From Pirellula sp. (GTDB taxonomy: Bacteria > Planctomycetota > Planctomycetia > Pirellulales > Pirellulaceae): a stretch of DNA of 32,624 nt. Of this stretch, positions 15,114 through 26,708 are shown in pieces. Location: NCBI GenBank assembly GCA_021300155.1, contig JAJTID010000144.1, positions 1-32,624 of the forward strand, read 5' to 3'. The stretch's first letter is position 1, and each line of letters opens with the position of its first letter. The notes below the pieces were generated by a model, which saw nothing but the letters and a program-made list of their open reading frames with translations, did no database searches and was not told the origin of the DNA. A program made the translations under genes and the position numbers.

Positions 15114-15143
15114 GTAGCCTGCCTATCGGGAAGGCTACTTTTT
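15114..15143 (+). terminator. Intrinsic terminator after the pyrophosphatase gene
   Basis: GTAGCCT (15114-15120) pairs with AGGCTAC (15132-15138) across an 11-nt loop, followed at once by TTTTT (15139-15143). It lies 24 bp after the hppA stop. It also overlaps the stop codon of the convergent minus-strand propeller gene, so the two genes share their 3' ends. Confidence 0.75.
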
Positions 15144-16462
15144 GGAAGCATCGAGTGATGCACGAACGAGTCGTTTGTCGTTGCGAGCGAAGACGCTCTT
15201 TTCGGCAAAGGCAGGATGAGACCAACAGACACCTCCACGCTGTCCTAGCTGGTCGCGAGTCGGTTCGATCAACGGACATCGATCGAGGATGGTCAAACCT
15301 GTCGGAGAGAGCTTTGCCAGGAGCAATTCGCCTCGTTCGTTGAACATCCATACTCGATCGGCTTGCCGGACCATATGGATCGTCGCCCATCGAGCGCGCG
15401 GCACAGCAGTGAGATCTTCCCAAATCCGTTCACCTGTTTTTGCATTGAGACAACGAAATTGTCCGTAGCTATCGGCCCCATAGATGAATCCTTGCTGAGA
15501 TATGCAACAACCGATCATGGCGTGTAGTGATTTGGTTTGTTGTTCATCTGGCCCGACAACTCGCCAAAGGACCTCTGAGGTTAACGATTCTTTTGGAGTA
15601 CGTATCATTCTTTTGGAGTACGTATCATCAGCGAACCATCATAAAACGACGAAACAAAAACGGTGTCGCCGTCTACGATTGGATCACCGATTCCGATTGG
15701 CATTCGGGATGGTGGGAAAGGATGCCCCCAGTAGACATTGCCTGTCACTGGGTCTAGACCAGACAAACTGTCGCCGGTCCAACAAACCAAGACATCTTTT
15801 CCAGCTTGTTGGATGAGGACTGGTGACGAATATGCCGCTCTATCCTTCAGGGACCTCCACACTTCTCGTCCCGACGTTTTATCAAAAGCCACCATGCAGG
15901 CACCGGCGTCTCCGGATACTTGCTGAATAACAAGTTCCTTATAGATGAAGGAAGAGCCAGCAATACCCCAAATCGGCATTCGAATGTTGTACTTTTCCAG
16001 CAAGTTGTGGTGCCAAAGCACTTCACCCGTCGATGCGTTCAGGCAATGAAAGTGACCCATCGCACCAATACAATAGACTTTTCCGTTGTCGATCGTCACA
16101 CTAGCGCGAGGGCCTGCCGTGTAGCTGATCTTGTAGTCAGCTTGGTATTCGTGGGTCCATAAAGACTTGCCTGTCGATGAGTCGAAACAAAGTACACGTT
16201 CGGTCGCGTCTCGATCTTTGGGTTGGCGGTCCATTACATAGACCTTGCCCCCGGCGACGGTAGGTCCGGTGTAGCCAGGTCCAACCTCTACGGACCAATC
16301 AAGTGGCAGTTGTCCATCTGGAAGCTCATTCACAAGCCCGGTTTCATTCCAGATTCCATCGCGAGTTGGGCCTCGCCATTGAGGCCAATCGTCTGCGGTT
16401 GTCAGACCGAATGGTATGGCTGAGAAAATAGACAAAAGAAAAAGGGATCGAAGTGGCTTCAT
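15135..16462 (-). pseudogene. PQQ-type beta-propeller protein gene split by a 20-bp tandem duplication
   Basis: The N-terminal part (16462-15605, 285 residues) starts at an ATG that opens a signal peptide (MKPLRSLFLLSIFSAIPFGL) and then DDWPQWRGPTRDG, the hallmark opening of planctomycete BamB/PQQ-like propellers. Blade motifs such as GKVYCIGAMGHFHCLN and STGEVLWHHN follow. It ends ...SSFYDGSLMIRTPKE-stop. The C-terminal part (15608-15135, 157 residues) begins MIRTPKESLTSEVLW and continues the blades (GFIYGADSYGQFRCLN, KTGERIWED). The shared MIRTPKE comes from the duplicated 20 bp. With one copy the frame is a single 435-residue protein. The new stop (TGA 15607-15605) overlaps the second ATG (15608-15606), so reinitiation could yield two polypeptides. 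It may be a recent mutation, a phase-variable state or a sequencing artefact. Confidence 0.85.
15587..15626. repeat. Exact 20-bp tandem duplication inside the propeller gene
   Basis: Bases 15587-15606 and 15607-15626 are identical (ATTCTTTTGG then AGTACGTATC). Because 20 is not a multiple of three, the second copy shifts the reading frame of the minus-strand propeller gene. Removing either copy restores one continuous frame. The repeat has no internal short period, so it looks like a single recent duplication and not a long-standing microsatellite. Confidence 0.95.
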
Positions 16463-18904: not shown

Positions 18905-19206
18905 GTGGACGTTCCCGCTCTGTCAAATGCTTGCAATTTACGTCGCTTAGCGAAACCACTCCTAGAGGAGGCTTTTTTCAACACGATTGTCTTGGACAGA
19001 AACATAGCTGGTGTCTCGGACAGAAACATAGCTGGGAGCCTGTTGCTTCTGGACAAAGCAGGCCGTAACTAGCCAGACACTGCCCAAAAAATCGTATGAT
19101 TGTATTCTTTCTTCATAGCGGAATAGAATCCAGGTCAGCATGAGCGGAATCTGGGGAATTGTTGATAATAGTGCGGATTTTCCGCTTAAGTAGGGATGTC
19201 TAGTTT
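18905..19206. other. Intergenic region with a 24-bp-period direct repeat
   Basis: There is no gene in these roughly 300 bp between divergent genes. An 18-bp unit (GGACAGAAACATAGCTGG) occurs exactly twice, at 18994-19011 and 19018-19035, with a 24-bp period. A partial third copy (TCTGGACA, near 19047) follows. The rest, 19070-19200, is A/T-rich and should contain the promoter of the phosphatase gene. The repeats could be regulator sites or the remains of a transposable-element end; neither is shown. Confidence 0.6.
18994..19035. repeat. Two exact 18-bp direct repeats, 24-bp period
   Basis: Copies at 18994-19011 and 19018-19035 are identical over 18 bp and separated by TGTCTC. The spacing of just over two helical turns would place two bound proteins on nearly the same face of DNA. 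Two copies are too few for a CRISPR array. Confidence 0.85.
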
Positions 19207-19701: not shown

Positions 19702-19914
19702 CCAAACGTGTCCGTGCCTTGTCGAAAACTTGTATTAGCAGTGGGTGCCTGATTGTTTTGAACCTCGCAATGCGTTAGCATCAAGCCGAGCGTTAGGAAC
19801 GCAAAGTAGCCAAGAGAGTGACCTCTGCCCGATGAACGAGATTTGTGAGGGATGCTTGTTCATTTATTCATCTATTGATCTCTCGATGTTTTGATCGAAA
19901 AGGGAATTTGTACG
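19702..19914. promoter_or_regulatory. Upstream region of recA
   Basis: This 213-bp gap carries GCGTTAG twice (19772-19778 and 19790-19796, 18 bp apart). The second copy is part of a small hairpin GCGTT/AACGC (19790-19802). These are candidates for regulatory sites, but I cannot match them to a known LexA box. The recA start at 19915 is preceded by AAAAGGGAA (about 19898-19906), a plausible ribosome-binding site. Confidence 0.35.
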
Positions 19915-21036
19915 ATGGCCGCATCCAAGAGCGCGAGCAAGAAGAAGTCCGACAAAAATTTACCGAGCGAGCCAAGCGGACTCGAGGTCCTCTACAAACG
20001 AGAGCCAGGCCTAAAGAATGCTCTCCAACAAATCGAAAAGCAGTTCGGCGAAGGCTCGATCATGCCTTTGGGTGGCGAATCTCAACTGAAGATCGAAGGG
20101 ATCAATACCGGATCTCTTTCGCTAGACATGGCACTCGGGGGTGTCGGTATTCCGCGAGGACGGATCATCGAGATCTTTGGCCCAGAGTCGAGCGGTAAAA
20201 CGACAGTCTCCCTTCACATCTGTGCGCAAGCTCAGAAGCTAGGTGGAATCGCTGCCATTATCGACGCGGAACATGCGTTCGACCCAACCTGGGGTAAAAA
20301 ACTCGGAGTGCAGTTAGATACATTGTTGGTCAGTCAACCGGGCAGCGGTGAAGAAGCGATGCAGATCGCAGAGATGTTGATCAAGAGTAACTCGGTAGAC
20401 GTCATCGTTGTGGACTCCGTCGCAGCATTGGTTCCTCGTCAAGAACTCGAAGGTGAAATCGGCGATACGCACGTTGGATTGCAAGCGCGATTGATGAGTC
20501 AGTCGATGCGCAAGCTGACGGGAGCTATCGCCAAGAGCAAGACGGCTGTCATCTTCATCAACCAGATTCGCGAGAAGATTGGTGGTATGTCCTACGGTTC
20601 ACCCGAAACCACTTCCGGTGGCCGTGCACTCAAGTTCTACGCTTCGTGTAGAATTGATGTCCGCCGAATTGGTCAACTAAAAGATGGCGAAGAAGTCGTC
20701 GGACAACGAGTCAAAGCAAAAATTGTGAAGAACAAGGTCGCGCCTCCCTTCCGAGTTGCTGAATTTGACATGATGCACAACTGCGGTATCAGCTACGAAG
20801 GTGACCTCCTCGATTTGGGAACCGCCCACAAGATCGTGAGCCGAAGCGGCGCATGGTACAAGTATGGTGAAACCTACATCGGTCAAGGAAAAGAAAAGGC
20901 TCGTAATTATCTCGTGGAAAACAAAGACGTTGCCGCAGAGATTCGCGATGCAATCCTGGCTTGCGGTGGCTACGCGGGCCCGGAAGGCAAACCGGATGCG
21001 GACGATGATGTTGACGAAGGAACCGCTGACTCTTAG
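19915..21036 (+). CDS. recA: Recombinase RecA
   Basis: I choose ATG 19915 (373 residues) because [11 protein letters not shown] begins after a purine-rich ribosome-binding site; the upstream in-frame ATG at 19891 would add eight residues. RecA hallmarks are all present: [14 protein letters not shown], the Walker A GPESSGKT (89-96), the Walker [13 protein letters not shown], loop L1 with EGEIGD, loop L2 [20 protein letters not shown], and [16 protein letters not shown]. The acidic C-tail ([13 protein letters not shown]) is typical. RecA forms filaments on single-stranded DNA for strand exchange and SOS induction. There is no intein or frameshift. Confidence 0.98.
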
Positions 21037-24209: not shown

Positions 24210-26708
24210 CTACCGATCGAGGTAGACTTGCGTGCTCTCTTCTTTCACGACAGGGACTGGGCGATTCTTGCTCTTGAGTTGTGCTCGTAGTACGAGAACC
24301 CCTTCTTTCGCATGGCGAACAGCCACTCGATAAATTTGCTGATCTTTCGGTTGCATCTGGGGAATCGGAGCGAAGACAATGGTTCGTTGTGATGTTTGGT
24401 GATTGGTAGGTGCATTCACTTGTTCGGATTTTGATCCATCTGGCATTTCAATCACCAGTTGGATATCGTTGTCCATTCGGGTTCCGGTGTTCGTGATGCG
24501 AATCAGATAAGTCGTCAAGCCATCAGTCTCGATCGGATCGTTATCGTCTTCGATGGTGAAGGCTAATTCGCTTTGCCCCTCCACTTGGACTTTCTTGTCG
24601 ACAGCATCCGCGCGAACACCGTCCGACAATCCTTGCAATCGGAGGACAAAATCTCCTTCTTGAACAGGAAGCAACACGACTTCGGTCGTCGCAGAGGAAC
24701 CGGCACTCAATTCGGAGAGGGACCAAGCGACTGCGTGTTGATCGGGCAAATAGGTACCTTCGTTGGCTGCGCTGTTGAATTCCATACCTCGTGGCAAATA
24801 AAGCATGAGCTCTACATTCTTGGCCATCGCCGTGCCTGAATTGGTAACACTGGTTCGATAAGTCGCTTGCCGTTCGAGGTAGCGAAGTCGCGGTCCTTCG
24901 ACGTTGAGAACTAACTTCGGAAGAATGACATCGATAGTTGCGGAAGATTCAAAGGTTGCACTATTTGTGGAGATCGCGCGGATTTTATTGATTGCCTTGC
25001 CCGCGGAAACCGCCATCAGATCGATTTCGAATCTCTCAGACTCTCCAGGCGCGAGATCGCCGACAGTCAGTCCAAGTGTTGACACACCAGAACTGTGACG
25101 CATGTTGGTCGGTACATCTTCCTCCAATTCCACACCGCGAGCTGTGCCAGTGCCAGTATTGGAAACTTCAATCGTGATCCGTAGATCATCACCACCGAGT
25201 ACTGTCGTATTGGCTTTTTGGTTGACGACAAGCTTCGGTTGGGTACTCATCGTTCGAACCGACGCTTGTGCCGCGAAGGTGACACTCGCGACGGAGCCGA
25301 GCTCCCCTTCGGATTCAGGGACGAGATCCACTGTCAGCACTTGTTCACTGCCCGCTTTCATCTCACCCAGTTTCCATACCAATTTGCCAGACGGATCGGT
25401 TTGAGCTGTTGGGCTTGTGCGAACAAGCTTGGCTCCTTTGGGTACGGCATCATGCACGTTGACATCGAATGCGGTCGCATTGCCAACATTGCGAACAAGC
25501 AGCGTGAATGTCGATGGTATGCCGACTTGTACTTCTGCTGGCGCACGTTTTTGGATCTCCATGCTTGGGTTTTGAGATCCATCCAAGTGCCGAACTCCAG
25601 GCGCTGCACTTGCGAGCGGGGTGAACTGACTAGTTGTCGATGTGGAAGCAAAGTTGCTCGGGGGCATCGACTCGTTTAACGATTCGCGAGGTAGCGGAGC
25701 ATTGAAGCGTTCTGTCGATCCTCCGCGCAGCGAATCACTCTTTGGCATCAGTTGCGGCATCGATTGTGTTGCCGACTGAGGGGCCGATGGAGGGGCCGAT
25801 TGAGGCATCGGTGGAGGTTCGAAGTTGTTGTTAGGATTGGAGATTGCGGGTGCGGGCGCAAAGTTTGGTTCCGATGCGATGCTTCGAGGATTAGCCAGCG
25901 ATGGTGGTTGCAGCCGTGCGGTGGCTGTATTCGAGGGTGTGCTATCTATCTCTGGAATTGCCTCGTTGTCGGCTGGTAGGCTGGTATTGCGTGGTTGAGA
26001 GAATGGTGAGCTCGGAAGATAGGCTGGTCCGCGCGGGAGCGTCGCTGGCAGCGTGCTCGGGCTTTGAAGCGTGTCCGTTGGCGTATTGGATAGATTATTG
26101 GGAAGAACCGGCGAGCCGATCGATGATGCTTCATCGGAGAGGCGATTGATCGGATTTGTTTGGTTCGAGGGAACGAGTGAAGGCATGTTTCCGCGCAGTT
26201 CGTCGATCGATGGAGAGTTGGTCAAGGGAGGGAGAGATGAGCCCGGTAGTGGAGAGCTAGGCAGTGGAGAGCTAGGCAGTGGTGAGCTAGGCAGTGGTGA
26301 GCTCGGAAGAAGGCCGCTGGTTGTGGGGAGAGGGGGCGTTTCGCGCAGAGGTGGTGGCTCCGCAAGAGATGTCGCGGCTCGATTTTGATTGGAGTAACGG
26401 ATCAGACTAACAGGCGATCGAAATGGGTTGTTTGGATCGACACTTCGCGATGCATGGTTGGTGGCGACAGGATCGGAATCGTTACCTCGGATCACAGGTG
26501 CAGGTGGAAACCCTTCTCGGTCGGCGGTGGTGTCTAGAATAATTCCTTGCGCAGGTCGGTTGGCATAAGTAAACTCGAGACCTGGTGAAGTTGTTTTTTC
26601 GACGCGAGCATCACGTTGTGCTAGGGCCATTGCCACCAGGATCATTGCAACGGATCCCGCAATTCCTCCGATGGTGATCGCGAGTTGTTTTAGTTTCGAG
26701 TTGTCCAT
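24210..26708 (-). CDS. Membrane-anchored Pro-rich protein with repeated DUF11-type beta-sandwich domains
   Basis: The 832-residue protein has an N-terminal helix (LAITIGGIAGSVAMILVAMALA) that is either an uncleaved anchor or a signal peptide. Residues about 35-380 are low-complexity Pro/Ser/Asn/Thr, including a five-residue repeat (PSSPL) five times. From about 385 to the end are four Ig-like domains of the DUF11/CARDB type, each with a variant of VRNVGNATAFDVNVHD: EVSNTGTGTARGVELEED, SVTNSGTAMAKNVELML and IRITNTGTRMDNDIQLVI. Such proteins are envelope or surface structural components, and planctomycetes carry many. It stands alone, divergent from gnd. Confidence 0.85.
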   Translation of the reverse strand: MDNSKLKQLAITIGGIAGSVAMILVAMALAQRDARVEKTTSPGLEFTYANRPAQGIILDTTADREGFPPAPVIRGNDSDPVATNHASRSVDPNNPFRSPVSLIRYSNQNRAATSLAEPPPLRETPPLPTTSGLLPSSPLPSSPLPSSPLPSSPLPGSSLPPLTNSPSIDELRGNMPSLVPSNQTNPINRLSDEASSIGSPVLPNNLSNTPTDTLQSPSTLPATLPRGPAYLPSSPFSQPRNTSLPADNEAIPEIDSTPSNTATARLQPPSLANPRSIASEPNFAPAPAISNPNNNFEPPPMPQSAPPSAPQSATQSMPQLMPKSDSLRGGSTERFNAPLPRESLNESMPPSNFASTSTTSQFTPLASAAPGVRHLDGSQNPSMEIQKRAPAEVQVGIPSTFTLLVRNVGNATAFDVNVHDAVPKGAKLVRTSPTAQTDPSGKLVWKLGEMKAGSEQVLTVDLVPESEGELGSVASVTFAAQASVRTMSTQPKLVVNQKANTTVLGGDDLRITIEVSNTGTGTARGVELEEDVPTNMRHSSGVSTLGLTVGDLAPGESERFEIDLMAVSAGKAINKIRAISTNSATFESSATIDVILPKLVLNVEGPRLRYLERQATYRTSVTNSGTAMAKNVELMLYLPRGMEFNSAANEGTYLPDQHAVAWSLSELSAGSSATTEVVLLPVQEGDFVLRLQGLSDGVRADAVDKKVQVEGQSELAFTIEDDNDPIETDGLTTYLIRITNTGTRMDNDIQLVIEMPDGSKSEQVNAPTNHQTSQRTIVFAPIPQMQPKDQQIYRVAVRHAKEGVLVLRAQLKSKNRPVPVVKEESTQVYLDR
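26238..26312. repeat. 15-bp tandem repeat within the DUF11 gene, five units
   Basis: Units start at 26238, 26253, 26268, 26283 and 26298. The central three are near-identical (consensus AGAGCTAGGCAGTGG), with the outer two diverged. The length is a multiple of three, so on the minus strand it adds PSSPL pentapeptides without a frameshift. Copy number is expected to vary between strains. Confidence 0.85.

Follow-up and report, generated by a model that had tools for sequence, protein, structure and literature searches.

Short tandem duplications are commonly put down to slippage during replication or to a related copying error. Frameshifting duplications of this class have exact adjacent copies, short microhomology, a unit length that is not divisible by 3 and a premature stop, all of which are shared by the repeat at 15587-15626 that we describe here; the only difference is that, by coincidence, an ATGA lies where the copies meet. 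Phase-variable contingency loci, which are built on simple sequence repeats, resemble our locus in that copy number determines the reading frame. They differ in that our locus contains a 20-bp unit just twice, its same-genus orthologues lack the repeat and no adaptive phenotype is known. In yeast, microhomology-mediated tandem duplications (MTDs) reportedly involve longer pairs of microhomology. According to a passage of a review (PMC13207564, citing Dan et al. 2021), MTDs in the fission yeast gene ssp1 convert one segment into two tandem copies, create a premature stop and are reversible. The duplication examined here is likewise a segment doubled in tandem with a premature stop, and would in principle be reversible, but it is bacterial and has just 2 bp of microhomology.

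Our analysis covered a window of 32,624 nucleotides, meaning the whole stretch of DNA. The following features on its minus strand are central to the argument.

15607..15626, minus strand: the copy of the 20-bp tandem unit that comes first in gene direction; it matches the second copy at 20/20 positions.
15587..15606, minus strand: second copy (in gene direction), 20 bp, absent from loci L003 and L032, which have one copy.
15605..16462, minus strand: ORF1, 285 aa, with ATG at 16462 and TGA at 15607-15605; a putative signal peptide (by eye) and part of a PQQ_2 propeller, truncated after the C-terminal MIRTPKE; PF13360, 98.3 bits.
15135..15608, minus strand: ORF2, 157 aa, with ATG at 15608-15606 and running to 15135; C-terminal portion of the propeller protein that ORF1 begins, starting with MIRTPKE, with no signal peptide (by eye); PF13360, 16.8 bits.
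15605..15608, minus strand: ATGA, in which the start of ORF2 overlaps the stop of ORF1; it spans the junction of the copies.

The repeat is exact and far above chance expectation. Specifically, Tandem Repeats Finder (TRF) called 15587-15628 with period 20, 2.1 copies and 100% match, and the perfect run of 22 bases was the longest in the window when units of 10-60 and runs of at least one unit were considered. Under the same criterion, the longest perfect run in sequences simulated from a first-order Markov model with the composition of the window (n = 20) was 10 in 2 cases, and the other 18 had none. The unit length of 20 is no multiple of 3, so doubling it shifts the reading frame. A match run of 22 for a unit of 20 leaves a junction microhomology of 2 bp (AT). 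Furthermore, the unit begins with GA and finishes with AT, so that doubling it mechanically yields ATGA, which needs no selection to explain its presence. Apart from this break, ORF1 and ORF2 are open, and no further stop has been acquired. The earlier note on this DNA had claimed an exact duplication that splits one propeller gene into two frames sharing MIRTPKE, with an ATGA stop/start at the junction and a single 435-residue protein expected from one copy. Each of these claims was borne out, the last by the intact frame of the L032 orthologue, whose residue count equals that of the two pieces minus the shared heptapeptide (285 + 157 - 7 = 435). Gene callers may report two genes at the split locus.

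The affected gene encodes a PQQ_2/BamB-like beta-propeller protein. ORF1 shares the PF13360 family match, with a score above the curated Pfam cut-off of 27.6 bits, whereas ORF2 alone falls under it. A profile of 20 intact homologues matched chains of BamB and of quinoprotein dehydrogenases with solved structures, covering the BamB chains over parts only. BamB proper is a lipoprotein with a Cys after its signal peptide. By eye, the N terminus of ORF1 (...PFGLTTADDWPQW) lacks a Cys of the lipoprotein type where cleavage is likely, and thus ORF1 is not BamB proper; it belongs to a large group of paralogues. As a query, it matched at least 38 places in its own genome at E <= 0.001 (41 of 58 candidates scored), which are not necessarily whole genes. 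Across the 60 genomes searched, its own included, there were 8 to 45 matches per genome. The split gene thus belongs to a set of related propeller genes that is large in these bacteria, and redundancy among them is plausible. The window was also scanned for RNA families, at gathering thresholds, and for tRNA, and none were found.

Comparison with relatives indicates the direction of the change. The closest relative found was a metagenome-assembled genome of an uncultured Pirellula sp. (G024, contig C268, CAIOHR010000268.1), represented by L003 and L032, which appear to be one record. Its sequence is identical to the gene in 1243 of 1376 columns (90%), with a single 20-column gap exactly at the repeat, one copy of the unit and an intact frame. 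Relatives were also checked for the pattern that the earlier note held would count against its reading, namely, two separate proteins in all of them, and this pattern was not seen. In all 18 same-genus orthologous loci retrieved (L003-L020), both halves lie in one continuous frame, and none of the 18 has a second copy at the site. The ORF1 search behind this set took in 26 other same-genus genomes, 8 of which gave only weaker best matches that we took as paralogues. Among all 75 loci compared (L003-L077), 58 had both halves in one frame and 2 had the halves in different frames (L058 and L063); in the other 15, mostly distant or truncated loci, at least one half had no match. The homologue at L063 (3956-5283) is more remote, with 54% identity to ORF1 and 42% to ORF2; either a break that arose independently or an error of sequencing could explain its frame difference. 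When ORF2 was searched across the family, 118 of the 119 genomes, its own included, had a match. Among the matches listed, the ORF2 match was nearly always inside a far longer frame; the short frames besides that of G000 measured 144 aa in G061 and 89 aa in G104, the latter lying 3 bases away from the contig start, and G076 had one stop within a match. Since the closest relative and every same-genus locus retrieved have one frame, the one-copy state is, by this comparison, ancestral and the split derived. As far as seen, this particular split appears to be confined to its own genome.

The duplication also seems to be young, because no difference separates its copies, although this genome and G024 differ at ~10% of aligned columns (1785 of 17794). 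The ratio of dN to dS between the two genomes is ~0.08 in the 5' part of the gene and ~0.07 in the 3' part. Together with the otherwise open pieces, these values are consistent with a gene that was constrained until recently. We therefore consider it probable that this is a real and recent frameshifting tandem duplication, its junction carrying 2 bp of microhomology, that inactivates one propeller gene and most likely leaves a null allele. Specifically, slippage during replication or a related copying error would have duplicated 20 bp in a secreted PQQ_2/BamB-like gene of a bacterium near Pirellula; the frameshift places a stop after residue 285 of 435, with the last third of the protein lost. 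Such a null allele could be tolerated via the many related genes in the genome. The exact repeat, the frame break and the intact one-copy relatives are direct observations; how the second copy arose, that the protein is secreted and that its function is lost are what we infer. The fresh null mutation suggested by the earlier note is the best reading of the locus. On this account, the locus clearly illustrates a young frameshifting tandem duplication at a stage when the gene has yet to decay, and by itself it is of little importance.

Among the alternatives, an error of assembly or consensus fares best. The true sequence would then have one copy and an intact gene, and the extra copy would stem from overlapping ends left unmerged, from gap filling or from mixed strains. 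The draft genome consists of 260 contigs, its contamination is estimated at 3.96%, and an error would fit both the intact same-genus loci and the change in divergence from G024 near the duplication; against this, identity with G024 is back to ~91% past the 3' end of the gene (193 mismatches in 2169 in the hppA region), and the window is without any N. In a short-read assembly, moreover, reads crossing the junction would be required. We also surveyed ~666 kb of the same genome, comprising the window and 40 chosen, non-random stretches (~10% of 6.46 Mb), and found no other 20-bp unit among its exact tandem repeats. Furthermore, repeats with units not divisible by 3 are also present in G006, a single-contig genome, which has eight non-low-complexity entries of this kind in 400 kb. 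No sign of an assembly error was found, yet such an error would look the same. It is possible, but we judge it unlikely, and we infer that the duplication is real in the organism.

It was also proposed in the earlier note that the locus is reversibly switchable. Under this explanation, slippage would move cells back and forth between a one-copy state with the full protein and a two-copy state with the split one, to the benefit of the lineage. Loss of one copy is indeed possible for a perfect tandem repeat whose unit length is no multiple of 3, one-copy revertants of the duplication must arise at some rate, and the ssp1 duplications described above offer a precedent for two-copy repeats that reversibly make premature stops. 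Nevertheless, phase-variable repeats form multi-copy tracts whose length varies between relatives, and here there are only two copies, with one in G024. The locus also lacks a conserved hypermutable tract of the sort seen in contingency repeats with many copies. A maintained switch is unsupported, since relatives should keep the repeat and none of the 18 same-genus loci has it. A meaningful switch is thus highly improbable. We regard as a similarly long shot the more elaborate version, in which the duplication reversibly switches a secreted propeller protein at the level of the population. It would then be a bacterial parallel to the rapidly reversible duplications described in yeast, and may have originated close to the boundary of a recombination tract. 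If one-copy and two-copy molecules coexist, the locus would still provide a simple natural case for measuring duplication reversion in bacteria outside the laboratory.

Reinitiation at an ATGA works in bacteria, and such overlaps can support translational coupling. In this respect, the stop/start overlap at 15605-15608 is that of a coupled pair. A Shine-Dalgarno (SD) motif before the downstream start is usual in such pairs, though not obligatory. By eye, no SD motif of the GGAG type is visible upstream of the ATG of ORF2 (TACTCCAAAAGA), whereas ORF1 has GAGG (CGAGGC). In the passages on SD usage of one study (PMC6728339), Planctomycetes are grouped with proteobacteria. Removal of the SD motif is reported there to have substantially lowered reinitiation in four of five tested Escherichia coli pairs, and over all pairs its contribution is described in those passages as anything from essential to nil. 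The termination-reinitiation suggested by the earlier note is accordingly possible in principle as far as the overlap goes, but the C-terminal piece has neither a visible SD motif nor a signal peptide. That the gene is a functional split gene, whose two polypeptides assemble into a propeller, is scarcely credible, given that ORF1 with its signal-peptide-like N terminus and ORF2 without one should land in different compartments and that the split form occurs in 0 of 18 same-genus orthologous loci. In particular, an exported propeller co-assembled from ORF1 and ORF2 is improbable because ORF2 is without a signal peptide.

A separate observation concerns the 3' part of the gene, which is unusually similar to that of G024. 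Between the two genomes, dS was 0.131 in the 3' part (150 codons) versus 0.418 in the 5' part, while the lowest value among 133 overlapping 150-codon segments, drawn from nine reading frames elsewhere in the contig, was 0.202. Correspondingly, the 450-column segment at 15133-15582 had 14 mismatches, the lowest in the alignment (mean 44.5). The next lowest, with 15 mismatches in 450 columns, was 19733-20182, which spans the start of recA and the sequence upstream of it and is possibly a conserved regulatory region; the names recA and hppA were assigned by eye from translations. A simple chimeric join of two lineages in the contig was considered and rejected, as identity with G024 rises only over the 3' third of the gene and then returns to its level of ~91%.

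The evidence on the cause of this similarity points in more than one direction. In the 153 pairs of the 18 same-genus orthologues, most of which are saturated, mean identity at fourfold sites was 0.329 in the 5' part and 0.328 in the 3' part, with the 3' value higher in 79 pairs. Saturation aside, this equality speaks against a general synonymous constraint. The eight closest same-genus pairs, which are not mutually independent, speak for synonymous constraint or a regionally low rate in the 3' part: dS was lower there in five of the eight, and in two it was about half of the 5' value (0.220 versus 0.422 and 0.233 versus 0.461). A short recombination tract between lineages in the 3' part of the gene is a possible explanation, fair but unproved. 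Because there are several differences from G024 inside the first 60 bases past the duplication, the edge of such a tract would lie near the duplication but not demonstrably at it, and any causal link between the two is speculative.

We also considered whether frame-breaking tandem duplications are a genome-wide habit, and rejected the idea. With low-complexity 14-bp entries left out, the ~666 kb surveyed held two exact repeats with a unit not divisible by 3, namely, the 20-bp repeat in the window and a 13-bp repeat at L088:1187, which overlaps no frame of at least 90 aa. Other tandem repeats also occur in the window. At 18988-19035, between two divergent ORFs, there is an imperfect 24-bp tandem duplication (95% matches), and its counterpart in G024 is shorter by 17 bases; this second duplication in the contig counts in favour of our preferred reading of the 20-bp repeat. 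Finally, a 15-bp repeat of 3.7 copies at 26248-26303 lies in frame within an 832-aa ORF (24210-26708, minus strand), where it encodes a Ser/Pro/Leu repeat.
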